Positions 5,050 through 37,772 of a DNA stretch of 37,893 nt are shown piece after piece. Source of the stretch: Clostridia bacterium (GTDB lineage: Bacteria; Bacillota; Clostridia; Oscillospirales; Acutalibacteraceae); NCBI GenBank assembly GCA_017466365.1, contig JAFTUG010000005.1, forward strand, positions 1 through 37,893, written 5' to 3'. The position numbers were made by a program, and so were the translations under genes. Position 1 is the stretch's first letter; each line of letters begins with the position of its first letter. The notes under the pieces are model-generated. The model was not told where the DNA came from. It saw nothing but the letters and a program-made list of their open reading frames with translations, and made no database searches.

Positions 5050-5406
5050 ATGTGCCGAGTGAATCTGTAAGCCGAGTTCTGTCATTTAAGGCAATCATCT
5101 GTCTACGCCGTACATTGCTGCACGTCTTTAGCCACCCTTCGGAGTATCGCCGAGCAAGCGACGGAATAAATCCTCCCCCAATCGGTGTTGCTTCGGATAG
5201 GGTTTGCAGGGCCGTGCGGTTCCCCGCACGCCGGTGAGCTCTTACCTCGCCTTTCCACCCTTACCTGCAAAGCAGGCGGTATATCTCTGTTGCACTTTCC
5301 CTAAGGTCACCCTCGGCGGCCGTTAGCCGTTATCCTGCTCTGTGAAGCTCGGACTTTCCTCACGCAGCTTGAAGCTGCCCGCGACTGCCCAACTCACTCG
5401 GCACAT
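5050..5406 (-). ncRNA. rnpB: RNase P RNA, bacterial type A
   Basis: This is the catalytic RNA of RNase P, which matures the 5' ends of tRNAs. On the minus strand the ends pair as helix P1: GTGCCGAGTGA near the 5' end (5394-5404) with TCACTCGGCAC at the 3' end (5052-5062). The conserved core is present: a GAGGAAAGTCCGAGCTTC-like P3/P4 entry, CAGGATAACGGCTAACGG, GGTGACCTTAGGGAAAGTG, GGTAAGGGTGGAAAGGCGAG and, near the 3' end, ACAGAACTCGGCTTACAG, the P4 3' strand region. The overall pattern and length of about 355 nt fit the ancestral type A, not the Bacillus type B. Ends are estimated to within a few bases. Confidence 0.95.
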
Positions 5407-22972: not shown

Positions 22973-25900
22973 TCAAAATCTGAAAAATTGCGAGAAAATC
23001 CAACGAATGCCGTTACATTTCCAATTGAGGCAATCCCAAATGAAATAGAAGAATCGGCAGGATATATATTCCTTAGGAGTATTGATAATCTCAATCAGCT
23101 TTTCGGTCTGCTCCTTATATTCATTGAGCTTTGCTTTTTCTGCTGTGCTGATATTCTCATCCGCAAGGAGTTCATCAATCTTTGCTTTGAGAGATTCAAT
23201 ATCATCTTCCCAGAATTTTGTTACTCTGTTTTCATCGAACATTCCGATTTCAACACCGATATCTGCAACGGATTTTTCTGCGGCAGCAATATCATCAAGG
23301 AGAGCTTCAAGAGATTCCCTGATTTCTTTATATTCAGCCTTCTGCTCTTCAGTGAGATTATCGGGATTAACGGCATCGATTTCGGCAATCTTATCTTCGA
23401 TAGCCGATTTATCGTCACTTGTTACCTTTTCGGGGTCATAGCCGTTTTCGATATCTGCGATTTCTTCAAGCTGTTTTTCGATTTCTTTAATCTTGTCTGT
23501 GAGAGCATCTGCATCAGCATTGGTATCTTCAAGACCCGCAATCTCTTCTTCGGTCACATTGCCGCTGTCGACAAGAGTCTGAATATCTTCTTTGAGCTTC
23601 TCAACAGCTTCCTTATCGGTCGACTTGATTGTTTCTTCATCATAGCCTGCAACTTCATCATTTATACGATCAATTTCAGCCTGTGTTTCATCAATCTTAT
23701 CTGTGAGAGCATCTGCATCAGCCTTGATATCTTCAAGAGCTGCAATCTCTTCTTCAGTCACATTGCCGCTGTCGATAAGAGTCTGAATATTATCTTTGAG
23801 GTTGTTGATTGCTTCTTCATCAGAGGATTTAACGGTCTCTTCGTTATAGCCGTTTACCGCATTTTCAATTCTTTCGATTTCCTTTGCAGTATCGTCAATC
23901 TTTGCTTTGAGCTTTTCAATTCCGTCAAGGATATCTTCAAGCTTCTTTGCCTCTTCGTCGGTGAGGTTGAAGCCGTATCGGTCCTTGATTTCATTTACTT
24001 TGCTGACAAGCTTATCAAGAGCAGGAACGTCGCTTGATTTTACGGTTCCGATATCAAACTCTGCATAGTCTTCTTCAACGTCCGCAATGAAAAGTTCAAT
24101 GCTGTTGATGATACGAAGCATATCTTCACAAGATTCCTTGATATCTGCCCATTCGTTCTTCTTGTCATCATCAGCAATATCTGTTACTGCGTTGTCAAGC
24201 TGGGCAACAACGTATTCAAGACTTTCTCTGTCGGTTGATTTGACGTTCCACTTCATCTCACCGTTATCTTCTACACGGTCGAGGTGAGAAATGCAGTTGT
24301 CATCAAGTGCAATTTCATAAGCAAGCTTTGCTTCGCCGGTGAAGTTGCCCGTTCCTGTTACTGTGAGCAGATATACACCGACATTTGTTGCCTTGTTACC
24401 GTTTACGGTGTAGGTTACTTCAGAAGCTGTGCCCGTTGCAACAACCTTTTCAACAGTCTGTGTCTGCTCTTTGCCGTTATAGGTGAGAGCTTCGCCGAGA
24501 ATGATGAATCCGTCGGAGATATCCTTGGGAAGAATGTTGGCTTTGGTCATAACAGTATGTTTTGCTTCAGGAACGGTCACCATTCCGTATTCAAGATCAT
24601 AATTGTTTGAACTTTCTTCGTCAACATCATAAGATATCGCAACATTAATATTTTCACCTGCATCAGCCTTTAAATATGAACCGCCAAGAACTTCGTATTC
24701 AATTGTGTCGCTGTCAGCAAGTCCGTCAAAAGTGACAGTAACCTTTGAAAGGTCAAGATTGATTGTTCCGTCATAAACCTTATCGGGAGCGGTTGCGGTG
24801 ACGGTTACGGGTTTCTTGGCGATTGTGAAATCTGCGGTTGCCTCGGTAGAATTAATCTTGTCTGTTTCGGCAACTGTGATTCTGACCGTGTATTCACCTG
24901 CATTCACGGGAGCTTCGGCAGTGTAAGTGCTGTCGTCTGCGCCCTTAACCTTGAATTCAACGCTTTCGTTATAGTCAATGTTGCTTACTACAGGTGAGGA
25001 ATCGCTTGACTTGCTGATTTCATATTCTGCGGTTACGGGCTTACCGTCATAAGTCTTTCCGAAACCGTTGATTTCAACTGTCACATCAGCCTTTTTAACC
25101 GTAAGAGGAATTGTTACCTCTGCAGGTGCATCGCCTTCGGCAAATGCTTCACCCATGGGATTAACGCCGACTGTGATTACATATTCACCTGCTGTGAGAT
25201 TTTCAAGAACCTCTGCTGAAACAAATACCATGTTGTCGAGAACTTCGTAATCCTCTGCTCCGAGGACGGTTTCGTCAATCATAACATAAGCAACAGTGTT
25301 GCCGTTGAGATTGAGGGTGAAGGACTGCTCTGCGTTCTTGGTCAGAACATAGACAACTTCCTCCTTAACCGATGTATCGAGCGTACTGTCGGTATAAACT
25401 ACGATACCGTCGGAATTAACGATAACGTATCTGCCTGCGTTATCGGTCGCCTTTGCATAGATTATATTCTTTGAATCAGGTTCAATGGTGAATGCTTCGG
25501 TATATTCAATCCATTCTGCGTTTTCAAAATCGGTTATTTCTTCGGTTGCAACAATATACTCTGTCTTTGCAAGTTTGCTTGTTTCATCGGATGCAGTGAT
25601 TGTTACTGACTGCGTTTCTTTGAAGAATTTACCGAACGTAACTGTGTTGATGAATGAATTCCATTTATTTTCAGCCAATACGATTTCGGCTGTAGGGTCT
25701 GCAAGGTCGGACTTGAGTTCGCCAAGCTCAAACTTTGCGATATATCCGGTTTCTGCCTGCTTGAGGTAACAAACTGCATTTTCTTCGTTTTCAAAGGTAA
25801 CTGACTGTGAATATTCCCCGTCAACAGTCTTGCCAATTTCATAGTCTGCGGGAGCAGTTACGGTTACTGCACTTGTGTACCAACCGTTTTCACCCTTTGT

Positions 25901-28900
25901 GCCGCTTACGGCTGCATCGGGTGCACCGTCATACCACTTAATTTCGTAGACATGATTTATAGTTGCACCGTTTACAATGTAGTTGGAATCCTCAACCGTT
26001 GCGGTTGCAATATAATTGCCGATTTCGGTGTTGGTTTCATTCTGTGTGATTGCTGCAGGAATTTCATTGCCGTTTACATCAATGTAATTTGCGGTTACTG
26101 TGCAGGGATTGCCCGTGTAATAGAAGCTGTCGCCCTCCCAGATAATATCAACGGTTGCAGGAGCGATATTGTATTTCCTTGTTACCTCACCCGTGTAGCT
26201 GCCGTCTGAATCAGCGGTGACAGTTACGGTTGCAAGACCTGCGTTGACATTGTCTTTGTATGCGAGAGTATAATCCTTGCCTTCGATGAGGGCTTTGCCG
26301 CCGACGGTAACGATAACCGTGGGGCTGATTTCGTCGCCGTTATAGGTAAACTCTGTATTATCAATAGTGATAATCGCTTCTGAAATGTCAGCACCCTTGG
26401 TTACCTTTACGTAGCCGTCAATAACTGTTGCATCATCTGCAACTTCAATAATCTTGCCGTCTGCATCACGGAAGTGATAACCGTCTGCGAGAATGGAATT
26501 TACGGTATAGTCCAGAATTCCGTCATTTGTAACAGAGAAACCGTTGGGATATTCACCGCCCTTAACTGTTATTTTGCCGTCACTGTTTTCTATTGTATTT
26601 GCATCGGTGAATATGCCGCCGTTTATTTCAAGAACTGATTCGTATGAAGTGTTGACATTTTTTATATGGGTCAGCGTGCCACCGTTAACGGTAACTTTAC
26701 CGTTGTTGGTGATATAACCGTGCATATCGCCATCAACAATTTTTACAGTTCCGTAATTATAGACAGCACATGATGCATCAATGATGCCACCGTTAATTGT
26801 CAATGAACCGTCATTTAAGAAACAGAACATATTGCCGAAAATTTTACCGTCAGAAGCTGAATCAACAACAGTCAATTCGGCAGATGAACCTATTTCAATA
26901 CCATTAGGATTCATAAGTGTATTTCCGTTTAGGTCAAATGTAAATTTGCCCGAATTGATTTCAAGAATATCTGTGAGAGTAACATCATCAAGAAGAGTGA
27001 GTGTGCTGTTTTCGCTTGCGGATGCTGCTGCGATTGCATCTGCAAGAGTTTTATACGGTGAGCCTTCAAGAGCATTGCCGTCTGTATCGGTTACCTTTGC
27101 GGCATAATTAAGCAGAGTAAACTGAACACTCGCCGTTACACCGCCGACTGTTACGCTTGCGGTGTAAGTGCCGGAATTTGTTGGGGCGTTACCGTCTGCG
27201 GTTGAATATGTAACATTAACTGCAACCGAAGTGTCAACAAGGTTGTTTTCAACAGTTGCTTCCTTTGCGGTTGTGCCGTCTGCATAAAGTTCTGCAGGTG
27301 CAGAGATTATGAGTGTGCCGCCGTTTGTGTCGGAGCAGCCTGTATCTGTGTTGGCACAAGTTGCGGTTATTGTGTCACCATTTGCAGAATAAATCCAATC
27401 GTGCTGGTGTGTTATGATAGTGAACTTTGTACTTCCGCTTACATTATAGTTTCCACCTGCATTGTCGGTGATTGTTATCGTTGCTTTACCGGCATCTGTA
27501 TTATCACTGTAGACTACTGTGTATTCGCTATCGGAAATTACATTTCCTTTATCGTCCTTTAATGTAAAGTCAGGTTTTATTTCGTTGCCGTTATCGTAGA
27601 GATAGGTTTCCTGCAAGCCTTGAAAATCAGGATTGCTTACTTCTCTGGGGGCGATTGTGAATGCTACAGGACTTATTGTTTTTGAATTATAATGTTCCGT
27701 TGCGGCAATAACTGCTCCGATATAATATGTGCCTGCATAACTTGGAACACCGCCTTCTGTTTCTGCACCGTTAGCAGATCCGGTCATAACCGGACGTCTG
27801 CCGGTGGAAATATAATAAGTGTATGTCACTTCAGCATTTTCGGGATTATTTGTAACATAGGGTTCGTTGGGAGTATCAAGATAATTCCAACTCTCAAGTA
27901 TTAATTGAGTGCTGAGAGAACCCTTGTTGATTTTCCAATATTTCGTAACCGTTCCGATATAGTTGCCTTTACCTGTTACGGTAACAGCATAACCGTCACC
28001 CGTGCTGATTTCTGTTGCAGAGGTTGTGCCTGTGATTTCATAGTCTACGGAAGCGGTGAGTGTTGTATTTGTATCATACTTAACGGTAACAGTTGTACTC
28101 TGTTCGGTTCCGTTATAGGAAACTGATGTTTTGGAAAGTGTTACCATTGAAGCAATGATTTCACAGGGCTGAATCTGATAGCTAACACTTGCTGTTGCTT
28201 CTCCCGCAGTAACAGAAGCAACTATATTCTGACCGGTAACATTTGTGCGGTCAATATCATTATAGATGATTGCGGGTTTACCGGGTTTCCATTCATTATA
28301 GGTGCAATCAGCATCTTTGGAGGTGCCGTCATAAACAAGTTCAGCAGGAGCAACAATAGTCATACTGCCGCCGTCATTATTATCAAGGTCACAGCCTGCA
28401 TTTACGCATTTTGCCTTAATGGAGTCTGTTCCGACCAAGGAATATTCCCACTTATGCATATGACGCTGTTCAAGAATGGGATACTCACTATGCTGATACC
28501 ATACAGTTTCGCTGTTGCCTGCATTAAGCTTAGCGGTAATTGTTCCGTCAGCAAATTCTTCTCGGGTGCTTCCGACAGTGATAGCATCGAAGTTTGATGC
28601 AGCTCCCTTCGTATCAAGATAAGGGCTGACATATGATGCCTCAACATTGCCCTCAATGGCATGGTTGTTGATAAGCTTATCCGGACCGGGCCAGACACCT
28701 GAACTGTAGCCTACGATAGGAGCACCTACGTTACTGGAAACGATCTTTGCGTAGTTGTGGCAGTTTTCGATAATGCAATTGCCTTGTTCACCCGCAATGC
28801 CGCCTGCTTTTGAAGTGGCATTTACATCACCTGCATTGTAGCAGTTAAGAATTTTATCAGAAGCATTATACGAACCAGAGGCAGCAATACCGCCGGCAAT

Positions 28901-31051
28901 GCCGCCGGTAATCGCGCCTTCATTGTAGCAAAGGGAGATATTTACATATGCTGATGTATTATCATAACCGGAAATACCACCGGCATAACCACCCTTGATA
29001 TCACCCGAGTTAAAGCATTTAATTACCTGCACCGATGCTCCGCTGCTATCACTTGGGGCAGCTACAATACCTGCGGCGGCATATATTACCGTAGAACTGC
29101 TTTCTGCGGTAACATCTGCGTTATTAGAGCACTCTCTAATCGTGCCTGCACCTGAACGCACACAAATACCGCCTGCATGTGAATCGTAGTTTTCTGTATG
29201 AACTGCCTTTACTGTGCCTGAAACAACATTACATTTTTCGATAGTTCCGGTATTTAAATACACGATACCTGCTGCAGCTGATTTACCTGCAACAGTAATA
29301 TTAGTTGCCGTACAGTTGGTTACCGTACCCCTATTCGTACCAATCATAGCAGAACTTGTACTGCCGATAATGGTTATATCCGATACTGCACAACCAGAAA
29401 CCGTACCGTTATTGTTCTCAACCAAACCAACTGCCGGAGTAGAGCTTATATAGTTGACGGTAGCACCGGAAAGTGTCAGATTTTTCAGTTCACCGCCACT
29501 TCCGATAGTATCGAACAACGGCAGTTCCATCTGTGGCAGTCCGCTGACGGTATAGCCGTCACCGTCAAAACTGCCGGTGTAGGCATCATCCTCACCAATA
29601 CGGTAATCACCGATTTTATCGGAAATCACCGCAGAAAAATCAATATTGTCTGTCAGAATGCCACTGATCGTAGGGTCTTCCTTTGACTTTTTGGCAAACT
29701 TATACCAGTCGAGTCTGTCAGCAATTTCATAAATACCGTCCTCATTGGGTTCGTAATCTGCCGCGGCATCACCGTTGTAATAACGATATCCGTCCTCTGC
29801 ATCAGGGTCATCTTCACGATATACAATATAATCCGCATTGTTATCAGCATTCCACACGGGATACTCATCTTCGCCGATTTTCTGTCCCCATTGTGAGTAA
29901 GCATTAGTGCTGCTTGAGGTTGAATTTGCAAGGTAATACGCAGCAACACCGGATTCGATTTCCGTTGTTGTATAGCTTTTACTGCTCGCATAATTTATTG
30001 CTTCGCCATAAACCGTGCTGTCATACGCACTGGCATAGGCATTGCCTGAAGCACCATAAAAAGGTCCCTGCTTTGTTGGTGCAGAAACTTTTGCACTGCT
30101 GAAGCTGGAGTATATTGCTGCATAATAACCAACGATACCACCTGCATTTTTTGTTGTAGCAGTAACATCTGTACCATAGTTGCAACAACCGCTGATATAG
30201 GTGTAGCTTAAGCTGCCACCACGTCCGAGAATACCGCCAACATCATAGTCACCGGTTACACTACTATCGGTAACAGCACAAAGTCTGATATACGATTTAT
30301 TACTTGAATTGTTACCTCCTGCCGAGCCTACAATACCGCCTATCTTGTCAGCAGTACCCGATATTTCGCTTTCAGATGTATGACAATTCGTTAAAGTTAC
30401 ACCGGCCGCAACATAACCGACGATGCCACCGACAGAACCTTTGCCGCTTACAATGCTTCCTGTTAGTTTACAGTTTTCAATGCTACTTCCGGAAGCAGCA
30501 CTTCCCGCAATAGCACCAAGGGAAGTGTTTGTACTGTAAAAGTAAGAATCTGCTATGGTCAGATTTTTTACCGAACCGCCTAAATAACCAACAAAACCTC
30601 TATAAGTTACAGTGTCATTAACATAAAGACCGCTGATGGTTTTATTATTACCGTCAAAGTGACCTTTGAATTGAGAAGTTGAGCTGAAGCTTTTCCCAAT
30701 AGCCGTCCACACAACCAAATTTGATATGTCAGTAGTCAGTGCGCCATCGACGATCACATTCTCGTTTACCGTGATGTTGTTTATCAGTATGGCATTGGCG
30801 GAGTTGTTCTTCGTAACACCACTTAGTGTGCCGTTGACAAGTCCGGCAAACCAATAGAGTTCTGATGCAGTTGTAATTTCGTAAACCGCATCCTTTGTAT
30901 CATCACCGTTTACATCATACTTGTCTGTCGTCAATGTCGGTTCTGTCGGAGTTATCTCTGCTGCCGCACTTGTAATAAAGCTGAGCGGTGTAACTGACAG
31001 TAGCATTGCCAATACAAGCAGTATGCTTATGAGTTTGTTTGTTTTTTTCAT
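22973..31051 (-). CDS. Giant secreted multi-module surface protein (GLUG, MBG-like and helical-repeat regions)
   Basis: The 2,692-residue product starts with a signal peptide (ISILLVLAMLLSVTPLSF, cleavage likely near AAAE about 32). GLUG-motif repeats fill about 150-780, for example VGGIVGYVAAG, AGGISGYDN and AGGIAGE. MBG-like modules begin near 905, 975, 1560, 2015, 2105 and 2200 (YDGTS, YNGTEQ, YNGDEI, YDGKPV, YDGTINLD, YNGKEQ). A beta-helix-like stretch spans about 1324-1514. An HxHxW plus CxxxxC segment occurs twice (about 866 and 1230). The C-terminal part (about 2254-2660) is charged, helical and built of 68-residue repeats. Such modules are typical of Clostridia adhesins or carbohydrate-contacting surface proteins. 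No LPXTG, SLH or dockerin anchor is visible, and the last about 30 residues look out of frame. ATG follows AAAGGAGGAAA and tetR lies 42 nt upstream. Confidence 0.88.
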   Translation of the reverse strand: MKKTNKLISILLVLAMLLSVTPLSFITSAAAEITPTEPTLTTDKYDVNGDDTKDAVYEITTASELYWFAGLVNGTLSGVTKNNSANAILINNITVNENVIVDGALTTDISNLVVWTAIGKSFSSTSQFKGHFDGNNKTISGLYVNDTVTYRGFVGYLGGSVKNLTIADSYFYSTNTSLGAIAGSAASGSSIENCKLTGSIVSGKGSVGGIVGYVAAGVTLTNCHTSESEISGTADKIGGIVGSAGGNNSSNKSYIRLCAVTDSSVTGDYDVGGILGRGGSLSYTYISGCCNYGTDVTATTKNAGGIVGYYAAIYSSFSSAKVSAPTKQGPFYGASGNAYASAYDSTVYGEAINYASSKSYTTTEIESGVAAYYLANSTSSSTNAYSQWGQKIGEDEYPVWNADNNADYIVYREDDPDAEDGYRYYNGDAAADYEPNEDGIYEIADRLDWYKFAKKSKEDPTISGILTDNIDFSAVISDKIGDYRIGEDDAYTGSFDGDGYTVSGLPQMELPLFDTIGSGGELKNLTLSGATVNYISSTPAVGLVENNNGTVSGCAVSDITIIGSTSSAMIGTNRGTVTNCTATNITVAGKSAAAGIVYLNTGTIEKCNVVSGTVKAVHTENYDSHAGGICVRSGAGTIRECSNNADVTAESSSTVIYAAAGIVAAPSDSSGASVQVIKCFNSGDIKGGYAGGISGYDNTSAYVNISLCYNEGAITGGIAGGIAASGSYNASDKILNCYNAGDVNATSKAGGIAGEQGNCIIENCHNYAKIVSSNVGAPIVGYSSGVWPGPDKLINNHAIEGNVEASYVSPYLDTKGAASNFDAITVGSTREEFADGTITAKLNAGNSETVWYQHSEYPILEQRHMHKWEYSLVGTDSIKAKCVNAGCDLDNNDGGSMTIVAPAELVYDGTSKDADCTYNEWKPGKPAIIYNDIDRTNVTGQNIVASVTAGEATASVSYQIQPCEIIASMVTLSKTSVSYNGTEQSTTVTVKYDTNTTLTASVDYEITGTTSATEISTGDGYAVTVTGKGNYIGTVTKYWKINKGSLSTQLILESWNYLDTPNEPYVTNNPENAEVTYTYYISTGRRPVMTGSANGAETEGGVPSYAGTYYIGAVIAATEHYNSKTISPVAFTIAPREVSNPDFQGLQETYLYDNGNEIKPDFTLKDDKGNVISDSEYTVVYSDNTDAGKATITITDNAGGNYNVSGSTKFTIITHQHDWIYSANGDTITATCANTDTGCSDTNGGTLIISAPAELYADGTTAKEATVENNLVDTSVAVNVTYSTADGNAPTNSGTYTASVTVGGVTASVQFTLLNYAAKVTDTDGNALEGSPYKTLADAIAAASASENSTLTLLDDVTLTDILEINSGKFTFDLNGNTLMNPNGIEIGSSAELTVVDSASDGKIFGNMFCFLNDGSLTINGGIIDASCAVYNYGTVKIVDGDMHGYITNNGKVTVNGGTLTHIKNVNTSYESVLEINGGIFTDANTIENSDGKITVKGGEYPNGFSVTNDGILDYTVNSILADGYHFRDADGKIIEVADDATVIDGYVKVTKGADISEAIITIDNTEFTYNGDEISPTVIVTVGGKALIEGKDYTLAYKDNVNAGLATVTVTADSDGSYTGEVTRKYNIAPATVDIIWEGDSFYYTGNPCTVTANYIDVNGNEIPAAITQNETNTEIGNYIATATVEDSNYIVNGATINHVYEIKWYDGAPDAAVSGTKGENGWYTSAVTVTAPADYEIGKTVDGEYSQSVTFENEENAVCYLKQAETGYIAKFELGELKSDLADPTAEIVLAENKWNSFINTVTFGKFFKETQSVTITASDETSKLAKTEYIVATEEITDFENAEWIEYTEAFTIEPDSKNIIYAKATDNAGRYVIVNSDGIVVYTDSTLDTSVKEEVVYVLTKNAEQSFTLNLNGNTVAYVMIDETVLGAEDYEVLDNMVFVSAEVLENLTAGEYVITVGVNPMGEAFAEGDAPAEVTIPLTVKKADVTVEINGFGKTYDGKPVTAEYEISKSSDSSPVVSNIDYNESVEFKVKGADDSTYTAEAPVNAGEYTVRITVAETDKINSTEATADFTIAKKPVTVTATAPDKVYDGTINLDLSKVTVTFDGLADSDTIEYEVLGGSYLKADAGENINVAISYDVDEESSNNYDLEYGMVTVPEAKHTVMTKANILPKDISDGFIILGEALTYNGKEQTQTVEKVVATGTASEVTYTVNGNKATNVGVYLLTVTGTGNFTGEAKLAYEIALDDNCISHLDRVEDNGEMKWNVKSTDRESLEYVVAQLDNAVTDIADDDKKNEWADIKESCEDMLRIINSIELFIADVEEDYAEFDIGTVKSSDVPALDKLVSKVNEIKDRYGFNLTDEEAKKLEDILDGIEKLKAKIDDTAKEIERIENAVNGYNEETVKSSDEEAINNLKDNIQTLIDSGNVTEEEIAALEDIKADADALTDKIDETQAEIDRINDEVAGYDEETIKSTDKEAVEKLKEDIQTLVDSGNVTEEEIAGLEDTNADADALTDKIKEIEKQLEEIADIENGYDPEKVTSDDKSAIEDKIAEIDAVNPDNLTEEQKAEYKEIRESLEALLDDIAAAEKSVADIGVEIGMFDENRVTKFWEDDIESLKAKIDELLADENISTAEKAKLNEYKEQTEKLIEIINTPKEYISCRFFYFIWDCLNWKCNGIRWIFSQFFRF
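23065..24060 (-). repeat. Tandem 68-residue (204-bp) coding repeats
   Basis: Five or more units, each beginning with a pattern like GYNEETVKSSDEEAI and ending in NVTEEEIAALED, LTDKIDE and helical tails, occupy the C-terminal part of the giant protein. Two adjacent copies (starting at about 23490 and 23694, offset exactly 204 bp) are nearly identical in DNA over about 100 bp, so they are recently duplicated. The others have diverged. Confidence 0.8.
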
Positions 31052-35770: not shown

Positions 35771-37408
35771 CTATTCAGAAGTTACTTCACAATACTTGCC
35801 GATGATGAACCTTGTTTTCGGGTATCGCAGTTTCCTTCCGTGAGCGGTTATACCTTCAAGTTCAACCTGAACTGTATTTGTGCTGCTGTCAGTACCTGCA
35901 ATTTTCGGTTTCATATATGAAGTGTAAGAAATGTTCTTGAATATTATGTTTTTAATCTCAAAATTCTCCGCTTGTTCATCATAAATCTTCACAAGTATCG
36001 GTCTGCCTTCGTCACGGAATATCTCAATATTTTCAAAAAGAACTCCGTCAATACTGCCTTCAGTCTGCTCTGCCACAACAACAAGTGAGCCGATCCTGTC
36101 ATTATCCCATATACCGTCACGGTAAATTACGGCACAGTTACGGAAAGCTACATCGGAAATCTTCTTGTTAACTTCGCCCGTGATGCCGAAGCATCTTGCG
36201 TATCCGCCCCAGGCAATGCAGTTTGTGAATGTGATATTTTTGCTGTCCATTGTGCCGCCGAGCGCTTTTACTTCAAACGTATCGTCTGCCACTCTTGCAA
36301 AGCAGTTGTCAACGGTAACGTTATGGCTGTTGCAGATTGCAAAGCCGTCACAGTTGCCGCGGTTGCCAATGATATCTACATTGTCAATGCTGACGTCGGT
36401 ACAGCAATAAGAGATAAATGACCATTCAGGCGAGTTTATGATTTTTATGTCGCTGACGTTTACGTTTTTGCAGTTGGTGAAAACAACGCCCCTTCTTTCT
36501 CTTCTGTCAAGTCGGGTCATATCTATAATACCTCTGCCGGTGAGGGTTACGTTGTTGCAGTTGTAAAAATTTATAAACGGATATCTTGTAAGCCCGAATG
36601 CATTGTCGCCCGGTGCAGTCGGCTCAAGATATTTGTTTTCGTCTTCGGAACAATCAATATCGTGAAGATGGTTTGCTATAACGTAAGCACCTTCACGAAG
36701 ATAAATTACAAGATTTTCATTTCCGACGAGGTTGACGTAGTCGTACTGATAAACACCTTTATCAAGCACCCATACGTTGTCTTCGCCGTATTCTTCTATG
36801 TATGCCGCAATTTCTTTATCCTCATCAACCTTTTCGCGCACCATAAGCGTGTAACCGTAATATTGGTTTGCGCCGTTGAAAAGGAAGGTGTAAACACCTG
36901 TTTTGTTGATAGATGCGGTTACGGTGTTATCTCTGCACTGTGCCTTTATACCGTGTGATTCAGGTAACACAATGGCATCTTTCAGCTCGACGTCAGCACC
37001 TGTTATCTCAATGTTGAATGAAAACTCCTCGCTTGAATCAACATAGATTTCGGAGAAGGAGTGGAGCGTACCCGTATCGTCAACACGAATGAAAACTACT
37101 GAAGCATAAACGGGGATTTCCTTTCCGCTCACCTTTGCAGTGTAATACGGAGAAACCGTTATGCCGTTTATATCGTCATATCCGCCCGACTGAACATATT
37201 CGGGAAGTTCAGCCGAAGCGCGCCCGACAAGCTCCTGCTCGGTAAGACCTGCTTCCTCAAGAGTGACAATTGCTTCATCGGGATATTCAAGATATGAAAA
37301 ATCAAAATTCTCACTTTCGGGATAAACCGTTGCAGGAAACAACAGATTTGAACAAAAAATTGTAATGGTTGTGAAAATTGTAAACAAAGATTTAAAAATG
37401 GTATGCAT
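35771..37408 (-). CDS. Secreted GH28-like right-handed beta-helix glycosidase
   Basis: The 545-residue protein has a signal peptide (MHTIFKSLFTIFTTITIFCS, cleavage likely by about 28-32). An N-terminal beta-domain of about 200 residues is followed by a parallel beta-helix. It carries GRGIIDMTRLDRRERRGVVF (close to the GH28 N-terminal signature), IINSPEWSFISYCCTDVSID, and GNRGNCDGFAIC with DNCFARVADDTFEVK. The NCDG, ADDT and FEVK positions match the order of GH28/GH49-type catalytic sites, though the residues are divergent. Probable role is pectin, dextran or related polymer cleavage outside the cell. Ribosome binding site GGAGG before the ATG at 37408. Confidence 0.87.
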   Translation of the reverse strand: MHTIFKSLFTIFTTITIFCSNLLFPATVYPESENFDFSYLEYPDEAIVTLEEAGLTEQELVGRASAELPEYVQSGGYDDINGITVSPYYTAKVSGKEIPVYASVVFIRVDDTGTLHSFSEIYVDSSEEFSFNIEITGADVELKDAIVLPESHGIKAQCRDNTVTASINKTGVYTFLFNGANQYYGYTLMVREKVDEDKEIAAYIEEYGEDNVWVLDKGVYQYDYVNLVGNENLVIYLREGAYVIANHLHDIDCSEDENKYLEPTAPGDNAFGLTRYPFINFYNCNNVTLTGRGIIDMTRLDRRERRGVVFTNCKNVNVSDIKIINSPEWSFISYCCTDVSIDNVDIIGNRGNCDGFAICNSHNVTVDNCFARVADDTFEVKALGGTMDSKNITFTNCIAWGGYARCFGITGEVNKKISDVAFRNCAVIYRDGIWDNDRIGSLVVVAEQTEGSIDGVLFENIEIFRDEGRPILVKIYDEQAENFEIKNIIFKNISYTSYMKPKIAGTDSSTNTVQVELEGITAHGRKLRYPKTRFIIGKYCEVTSE

Positions 37409-37445: not shown

Positions 37446-37473
37446 TATATGCAAATTCTTGTTTGTAGGGCTG

Positions 37474-37502
37474 ATTATATCACACATAATCTGAAATTAC
37501 AA
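37474..37502 (-). promoter_or_regulatory. Extended -10 promoter of the GH28-like gene
   Basis: On the minus strand -35 TTGTAA (37497-37502), 17-nt spacer, a perfect -10 TATAAT (37474-37479) preceded by TGA. The leader to the ATG is about 60 nt. Confidence 0.7.
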
Positions 37503-37530
37503 TCGGGGGCGGGTGTCCTTATAAAATGGA

Positions 37531-37731
37531 ATATAGCTACGCCATATGAAATAATCCTGACGGATTATGAAATATTTTGCCTATAGCAAAATGTGAAATA
37601 AATTTCGCCCATAACATTTGCGAAGCAAATATTTCATACGCGTCAGCGTATTTCACAGCGAAGCTATTTCATTCGCCGAAAGGCGAATTTCATTGAAAAG
37701 GAAAGACACGCTGTTGCGTGTCTTTCTTTTT
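37531..37731. repeat. Array of short hairpins with complementary linkers
   Basis: Eight or nine small inverted repeats lie end to end: 37531-37547 (weak), 37551-37568, 37574-37592, a half-hairpin near 37599-37610, 37616-37630, 37636-37651, a 3-bp one at 37657-37665, 37671-37688, and a terminator-like 11-bp stem at 37701-37725. Left-half linkers read TGAAATA (three times, at 37547, 37568 and 37594). Right-half linkers read ATTTCAT or ATTTCAC (four times, at 37631, 37650, 37666 and 37687). The two linker types are reverse complements, so the whole element is a nested, multi-branched inverted repeat. See findings. Confidence 0.7.
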
Positions 37732-37772
37732 CTGGAGGTACTTCCCTGAAATGAACCATTGTTTATTTCTGT

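Follow-up and report, generated by a model that had tools for sequence, protein, structure and literature searches.

A Gut-1 RNA array in a Clostridia genome as a probable solo copy of a small mobile element found with S23 genes behind tRNAs

The window, i.e., the whole stretch of 37,893 nucleotides analysed from a Clostridia bacterium, carries a compact array of small hairpins at positions 37531-37731. The array lies between a gene for a glycoside hydrolase of family 28 (GH28; 35771-37408, minus strand), which belongs to the host flank and is outside the element, and the end of a reading frame cut off by the contig boundary. No tRNA gene adjoins it, and it sits behind a protein gene. Elsewhere in the window, a bacterial class A RNase P RNA (RF00010) was found at 5052-5400 on the minus strand, and one open reading frame of 2692 residues, by far the longest of the window, occupies 22973-31051 on the same strand.

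On the minus strand the array is led by a terminator-like hairpin, H0 (37695-37732; 94% complementary), which corresponds to the strong closing stem reported in an initial annotation of this DNA. The private hairpins and complementary linkers described there were also recovered by reading the sequence and checking its complementarity. Behind H0, four TGAAAT linkers (37687-37692, 37666-37671, 37650-37655, and 37631-37636), which are the ATTTCA linkers of the right half when the forward strand is read, alternate with four private hairpins: TCGCC-TTTC-GGCGA (37673-37686), AGC-TTC-GCT (37657-37665), ACGC-TGAC-GCGT (37638-37649), and ATTTGC-TTC-GCAAAT (37616-37630). After a central strand (37600-37610) come three facing linkers, ATTTCA on the minus strand and TGAAAT in the left half of the forward strand (37594-37599, 37568-37573, and 37547-37552), together with a fifth hairpin (37574-37592) and a sixth, AATCC-GTCA-GGATT (37553-37566). 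Loops are mirrored between the halves as had been claimed, with TGAC at 37553-37566 and GTCA at 37638-37649 on the forward strand. By eye, a decayed last hairpin with an outer linker (37520-37545) forms the outer end of the unit, which is blurred; homology of the flank to the two longest-matching relatives stops at 37465 and 37483. We call this two-armed arrangement of linkers and hairpins a comb.

The segment at 37599-37610 had been read as a stem that lost its partner arm through decay or rearrangement. This reading is refuted, as the segment forms the central strand, whose complement is the first linker plus hairpin arm (37682-37694), and is a regular part of the design that recurs in relatives: centre and start were complementary over at least 8 nt in 25 of 72 of their elements vs. 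6 of 1440 shuffles, and over a shorter stretch in the remaining 47. As RNA, the region 37500-37760 folded with a z of -8.4 against dinucleotide shuffles; with the terminator excluded (37519-37694) values were -6.0 for RNA and -6.3 for DNA, and none of 200 shuffles was equally low. Concerning the comb-like fold proposed initially, hairpins and linkers are present, whereas the lowest-energy fold pairs the two halves along much of their length and is not a clean comb.

The array is a member of the Gut-1 RNA family (RF01706), a motif present in Rfam although the initial annotation did not recognise it. The match on the minus strand (37626-37695) scored 60.3 bits, above the gathering threshold of 50, and the facing half gave a weak match on the plus strand (37489-37578) below that threshold (36.9 bits). 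Alignment with the window array showed that the family consensus consists of three TGAAAT-linked hairpins; the Rfam model covers one half of a comb, whereas the comb described here is part of a unit with an S23 gene, a tRNA gene, and H0. At the gathering threshold, Gut-1 and RNase P were the only Rfam families in the window, in agreement with the earlier view that the array is not a CRISPR, a REP element, or a riboswitch; these three readings were dropped as being without support. A sub-threshold Leu_leader match over H0 was taken as chance. In the 2010 paper on Gut-1 (PMC2864571), the motif is regarded as certainly an RNA, probably not cis-regulatory, and most likely a free noncoding RNA, and is reported from human gut only. 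Matches to RF01706 over threshold in gut MAGs from water buffalo (L131), roe deer (L142), and yak (L144) depart from that description, and the larger unit described below occurs in many ruminant gut MAGs.

Copies in related Clostridia, the first check suggested for the array, were frequent. With 64 candidates scored per genome, Gut-1 matches (E ≤ 1e-3) were obtained in 44 of 60 genomes, that of the window copy included, and were over the cut-off in 38 of the 60, with up to 48 matches per genome; among control genomes, one of 14 had a match, below the cut-off. The genome of the window copy displayed a second, sub-threshold match at C12 (43.3 bits), with the linker GCGATAT as judged by eye. Many matches were close to contig ends, as happens with repeats, and copies were located behind protein genes and not only behind tRNA genes. 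Within the genome with 48 matches (G059), the copies were dispersed and 90-95% identical, H0 and comb being common to them while the flanks diverge; dispersed, near-identical non-coding copies with different flanks are a trait of MITEs. Two combs of this genome (L043, 946-1240 and 5286-5576) were 94.6% identical and carry, by eye, a piece resembling the 3' end of tmRNA beside H0.

The full unit of the relatives, in the direction of Gut-1, is composed of the 3' end of a tRNA or tmRNA, H0, the sequence AAC.AAAT, the left half, the centre, and the right half, followed at several loci by a promoter-like sequence and an S23 gene. An H0-type hairpin with an A-run and a T-run also stands directly after the tRNA CCA in relatives. 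The S23 product matched PF05635 (E = 4.7e-25), its nearest solved structures being 2rld and 2gsc. The promoter-like sequence of S23 was identified by eye behind the comb, so that an mRNA started from it would lack the comb.

Nine comb-linked proteins were used to scan for S23, and the best 80 of 573 confirmed stretches (MAGs and one isolate, from Clostridia or close to it) plus one viral contig gave 81 loci, 77 of which (76 from genomes and one from the viral contig) had at least 300 nt upstream. A comb (score ≥ 5) was found in all 77 loci of this set, which is query-biased since the query was built from comb-linked proteins, vs. 5 of 1540 shuffles. In the same best-80 set, a tRNA gene was present upstream on the same strand in 61 of 77 loci within 700 nt and in 51 within 300 nt, 14 tRNA types being used, and an opposite-strand tRNA in none of the 77. 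A small control of 76 kb chosen without regard to tRNA or S23 (L078-L096) contained no tRNA. A sample unselected for combs was also formed from 89 of the 96 S23 matches in the 60 genomes (L017, L021, L042, L050, L063, and two others being left out), 83 of them with at least 200 nt upstream. Comb scores ≥ 7 were obtained in 37 of these 83 loci, including three (L269, L281, and L282) that rest on pyrimidine-rich words and are perhaps not combs, vs. 1 of 332 shuffles; combs seen by eye at L109, L115, and L124 scored 6, under this cut. A tRNA lay within 500 nt upstream in 19 of the 37 comb-scoring loci and in 13 of the 46 others.

Other S23 clades (L098, L102, L103, L112, L122, L252, L253, L256, L257, L263, and L264) presented, by eye, short repeats of GCGGAAT type or AT-rich upstream in place of clear combs; seven of these loci lie 130-200 nt behind a tRNA gene. 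At five further loci (L129, L132, L152, L158, and L185), inspection by eye revealed a tRNA 3' fragment only before H0 and an inverted T-arm-like sequence farther upstream, an arrangement that resembles a further insertion in tRNA genes or an attachment site that has been displaced. At about 1200-1400 of L022, part of a tRNA-Thr gene is duplicated ahead of the gene, the duplicate being broken up by other sequence, again by eye.

Besides TGAAAT, ten linkers were classed, e.g., GTGAAGT, AGTTATATT, AGCTAAAT, TGAATTG, ATGATAT, GCGATAT, and TATATCATC. Every class had its reverse complement in the opposite half, a property that detection required and that was rare in shuffles. On a tree of 58 S23 proteins (38 rows from the comb-unselected set, 12 from the best-80 set, and 8 chosen comb-free), the 12 classes, "no comb" counted as one, needed 13 changes, with a minimum of 11 and a shuffled mean of 40.0, and none of 200 shuffles was as low; linker labels were assigned by hand after both linker and protein had been viewed. 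GTGAAGT alone needed four changes, arising in more than one S23 clade, and one S23 clade had no comb. The S23 clades span several host families, and a single genome (G023) held three of them with three linkers. Linker class follows S23 clade, and therefore linker and S23 travel together and share descent. This concordance fits specific recognition, but plain co-transmission as well.

Empty sites and target duplications had been named initially as signs to be looked for. Empty sites were encountered in relatives at three tRNA loci, where filled and empty versions were compared, each time within one genus; inspection of the filled sites by eye showed no target duplications. Between tRNA-Glu and thrS, the site was filled in G006 (comb and S23) and in G063 (a partial comb and another small gene) and empty in G033 and G031, with thrS on the far side in each filled and empty genome. 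Two of 22 monocistronic tRNA-Gly loci were filled, with two different linker families (L300 and L316), and a third family was found at tRNA-Gly of G010 (L036); comparing G010 with the empty G060, and G008 with the empty G025, the next gene was common within each pair, by eye. Readable combs of three linker families occurred in five of the 30 tRNA-Thr loci read, and two further loci held remnants.

At the tRNA-Thr locus of G036, the sequence after S23 matched the sequence that follows CCA, i.e., the native terminator, in the empty genomes G002, G011, G032, and G033 (alignment scores 60, 60, 50, and 56, respectively; the best of 81 control S23 ends reached 36). Since the native terminator is behind S23, H0, comb, and S23 entered between CCA and terminator. 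At tRNA-Gly of G021 the likeness of the post-S23 sequence to native terminators was weak (best 39 vs. controls up to 36), and the sequence is only suggestive of a unit ahead of the native terminator. We had considered H0 to be the native terminator itself, because orthologous terminators look alike; this was rejected for tRNA-Thr of G036 and for the solo copies of G059. H0 is consequently part of the unit. Nearly identical H0 preceded three different combs at tRNA-Thr (L329, L335/L348, and L350), implying that H0 and comb are exchangeable or that H0 can remain behind.

These loci also bear on whether comb and H0 could be a regulatory tRNA trailer or attenuator, acting on tRNA maturation or on a downstream operon. 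The fixed position behind tRNA genes, the terminator-like H0, and the coupled downstream genes would agree with such a role, but the structure was absent at the same tRNA in most congeneric species, as the monocistronic tRNA-Gly count illustrates, a promoter of its own for S23 seems, by eye, to lie behind the comb, and there are copies behind protein genes; we regard it as very unlikely. For the window locus, GH28 orthologues were read in eight relatives, and their upstream sequence differs from that of the window and in each relative, so that this locus provided no clean empty-site comparison.

Taken together, the array is probably a non-coding, solo representative of a small mobile element that inhabits Clostridia of gut and rumen. 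The full element, which stands behind tRNA CCA, consists of H0, a comb with about three to four private hairpins on one linker and about three to four on its reverse complement, a promoter-like sequence, a gene for an S23/IVP four-helix-bundle protein, and often a translationally coupled small gene. It inserts directly behind the tRNA CCA and ahead of the native terminator, which H0 would replace, so that the host tRNA should still end properly. S23 would serve the element as its own factor for mobility or maintenance and may read the comb of linkers and hairpins, most likely as hairpins of single-stranded DNA, one strand per half; solo combs would be moved in trans or be remnants. PF05635 gave no match in the genome of the window copy (79.6% complete, 20 contigs), and we infer that this copy derives from an S23-comb element. 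Of the options listed initially, a small non-autonomous mobile element fits best. The initial interpretation held as regards the mobile element, its copies, and its empty sites, and failed on the Rfam identity and the "lost arm"; the S23 and tRNA partners, by which the element is defined, were outside its view.

Three protein families were searched as candidate helpers. S23 was present in 11 of the 12 genomes with at least nine Gut-1 matches, several of which are incomplete, vs. 29 of the 48 others; corresponding values were 6 of 12 vs. 19 of 48 for RT and 5 of 12 vs. 21 of 48 for Y1 transposase. Mobility driven by RT or Y1 was rejected, as the presence of neither tracks comb number. In G059, S23 was present and neither RT nor Y1 was found; Y1 was absent from the sequences of this genome and of the window copy's genome, both incomplete. 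RT matches of the 60-genome search were never on the same contig as an S23 match. S23 is the best candidate helper among the three families, and solo combs would be served in trans or be leftovers. One genome listed as 100% complete (G007) had 21 Gut-1 matches and no S23 found. This genome, together with the many copies, the inverted architecture, and the S23-free solo copies, would be accounted for if the comb were a classical MITE or REP-like repeat that owes its spread to a transposase unrelated to it, Y1/RAYT or another, with S23 as a passenger. Such an origin is unlikely, given that Y1, the transposase family searched, was not found in the genome with most copies and was no commoner in comb-rich genomes, that the linker tracks the S23 clade across host families, and that insertion takes place at the 3' end of many tRNA types.

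Loops of the private hairpins (at least four pairs) were surveyed in 95 elements of the TGAAAT family, with 118 distinct segments in the left half and 199 in the right half. Hairpins were formed by 78 and 159 segments, respectively, as compared to 5 and 14% in shuffles. With closure by C-G, TN(N)C predominated in the left half (53 of 78 hairpins; GN(N)A 0, others 25) and GN(N)A was frequent in the right half (73 of 159 hairpins; TN(N)C 1, others 85), so that loops of other kinds occur in about half of the right-half and a third of the left-half hairpins. The other linker families, represented by 30 elements, gave TN(N)C in 13 and GN(N)A in 3 of 31 hairpins in the left half, and GN(N)A in 12 and TN(N)C in 2 of 40 in the right half. 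RNA tetraloops favour GNRA. When GNNA tetraloops were read on the strand that carries them, their third base was a pyrimidine in 36 of 72 cases (26 of 45 in the right half and 6 of 17 in the left half of the TGAAAT family, and 4 of 10 in other families). Ratios of G.T to A.C mismatches were 10:0 in the right half of the TGAAAT family and 0:2 in that of other families, and 0:2 and 0:0 in the respective left halves, counts too few to decide. In DNA, mini-hairpins with a GNA or GNNA loop (any N) are extraordinarily stable (PMC4686876). With GNA/GNNA as the commonest loops in one half and their complement in the other, each half seems adapted to folding as single-stranded DNA of its own strand; the loop rule hints at single-stranded DNA rather than one RNA.

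These data have to be weighed against Gut-1 being an independent structured noncoding RNA, the adjoining S23 gene and tRNA being incidental. The Rfam model, the view published in PMC2864571, and the strong RNA fold of the window copy argue in its favour, and the frequent position behind tRNA genes would permit read-through transcription. Conversely, the unit is present in some species and absent in others at the same site, the S23 linkage was complete in the 77 loci (a query-biased set), the mirrored loop types leave no single RNA strand with one loop type, the pyrimidines of GNNA run against the GNRA rule, and the promoter-like sequence of S23 lies, by eye, behind the comb. We therefore consider an independent RNA quite unlikely and retain the mobile element as the preferred interpretation.

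S23/IVP proteins have been known for decades from broken 23S rRNAs. Elements of this kind, the 23S rRNA IVS, share PF05635 with the present units, and both are located at stable RNA genes; we rate them as the nearest known system. The IVS with S23/IVP has been termed a selfish element (PMC4990558). Differently from it, the units found here are mostly behind tRNA CCA and not inside 23S rRNA helices, and add H0, a two-armed comb, a promoter-like sequence, and many copies; the window copy, moreover, has no S23 match in its genome and lies between protein reading frames, not in 23S rRNA. PF05635 has been reported to resemble the DGR accessory protein Avd (PMC10053308); the units depart from DGRs in that RT and S23 shared no contig and that 6 of the 12 comb-rich genomes gave no RT match. 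Like integron cassettes and tRNA-targeted integrative elements, the present units combine a constant head with variable small genes that follow it, insert at tRNA 3' ends, and form tandems; they differ in using many tRNA types and in that, within the loci read, their genes were S23 and variable second genes only. The window motif was already known by name, whereas no description of an S23-comb-tRNA element was found in print among titles of the open-access PMC literature. The orphan RNA family Gut-1 gains a context, orphan S23/IVP proteins gain a directly testable candidate nucleic-acid partner, and the paired linker and S23 clades are ready-made specificity controls. A mobile unit without a recognised transposase that lands behind many tRNA types would represent a new insertion specificity.

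The units might even be a new class of mobile element with the mature tRNA 3' CCA as landing site and S23 as the sole constant encoded factor, a proposal that we put forward tentatively and hold to be rather doubtful. The RNA or cDNA of the unit would be joined to the 3' end of any tRNA, and the tRNA-unit chimera would be copied into that tRNA gene by homology; the A-run of H0 at CCA would be a reverse copy of the U-tail of the terminator. The comb, as DNA mini-hairpins, would be the recognition platform of S23, and the insertion of IVS into rRNA would be the same phenomenon with a different stable RNA as target. The junction CCA|GAAAAAAG, the many tRNA types, and the likeness between PF05635 and Avd suggest, as speculation, that movement includes a step with RNA or cDNA at the ends of mature tRNAs. 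Half of the comb-rich genomes gave no RT match, which disfavours a resident RT for this step.

Genes behind S23 varied among loci. Within the best-80 set plus the viral contig, the S23 stop overlapped the start of the next gene by four bases in 27 of 81 loci (25 ATGA and 2 GTGA), and 31 of the 81 had no second reading frame within 45 nt. Six of ten second genes checked matched Pfam above cut-off (two GNAT acetyltransferases, a WapI-like immunity protein, an ASCH domain, an AAA domain, and a pyrophosphatase), and homologous second genes were common to five locus pairs, one of them inside a single MAG. Two conserved tails appeared after coupled genes, one with ..CCGGAAGATAGCGG..ATCATCGCCAAGGGATAAG.. 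and the other with repeated TTTGGTTACTCTT; they were located downstream of the cargo at L143, L187, and L196 and upstream of H0 at L145 and L197, and matched no Rfam family in the 12 loci searched. Right behind such a tail another H0 and comb can start, which results in tandem units.
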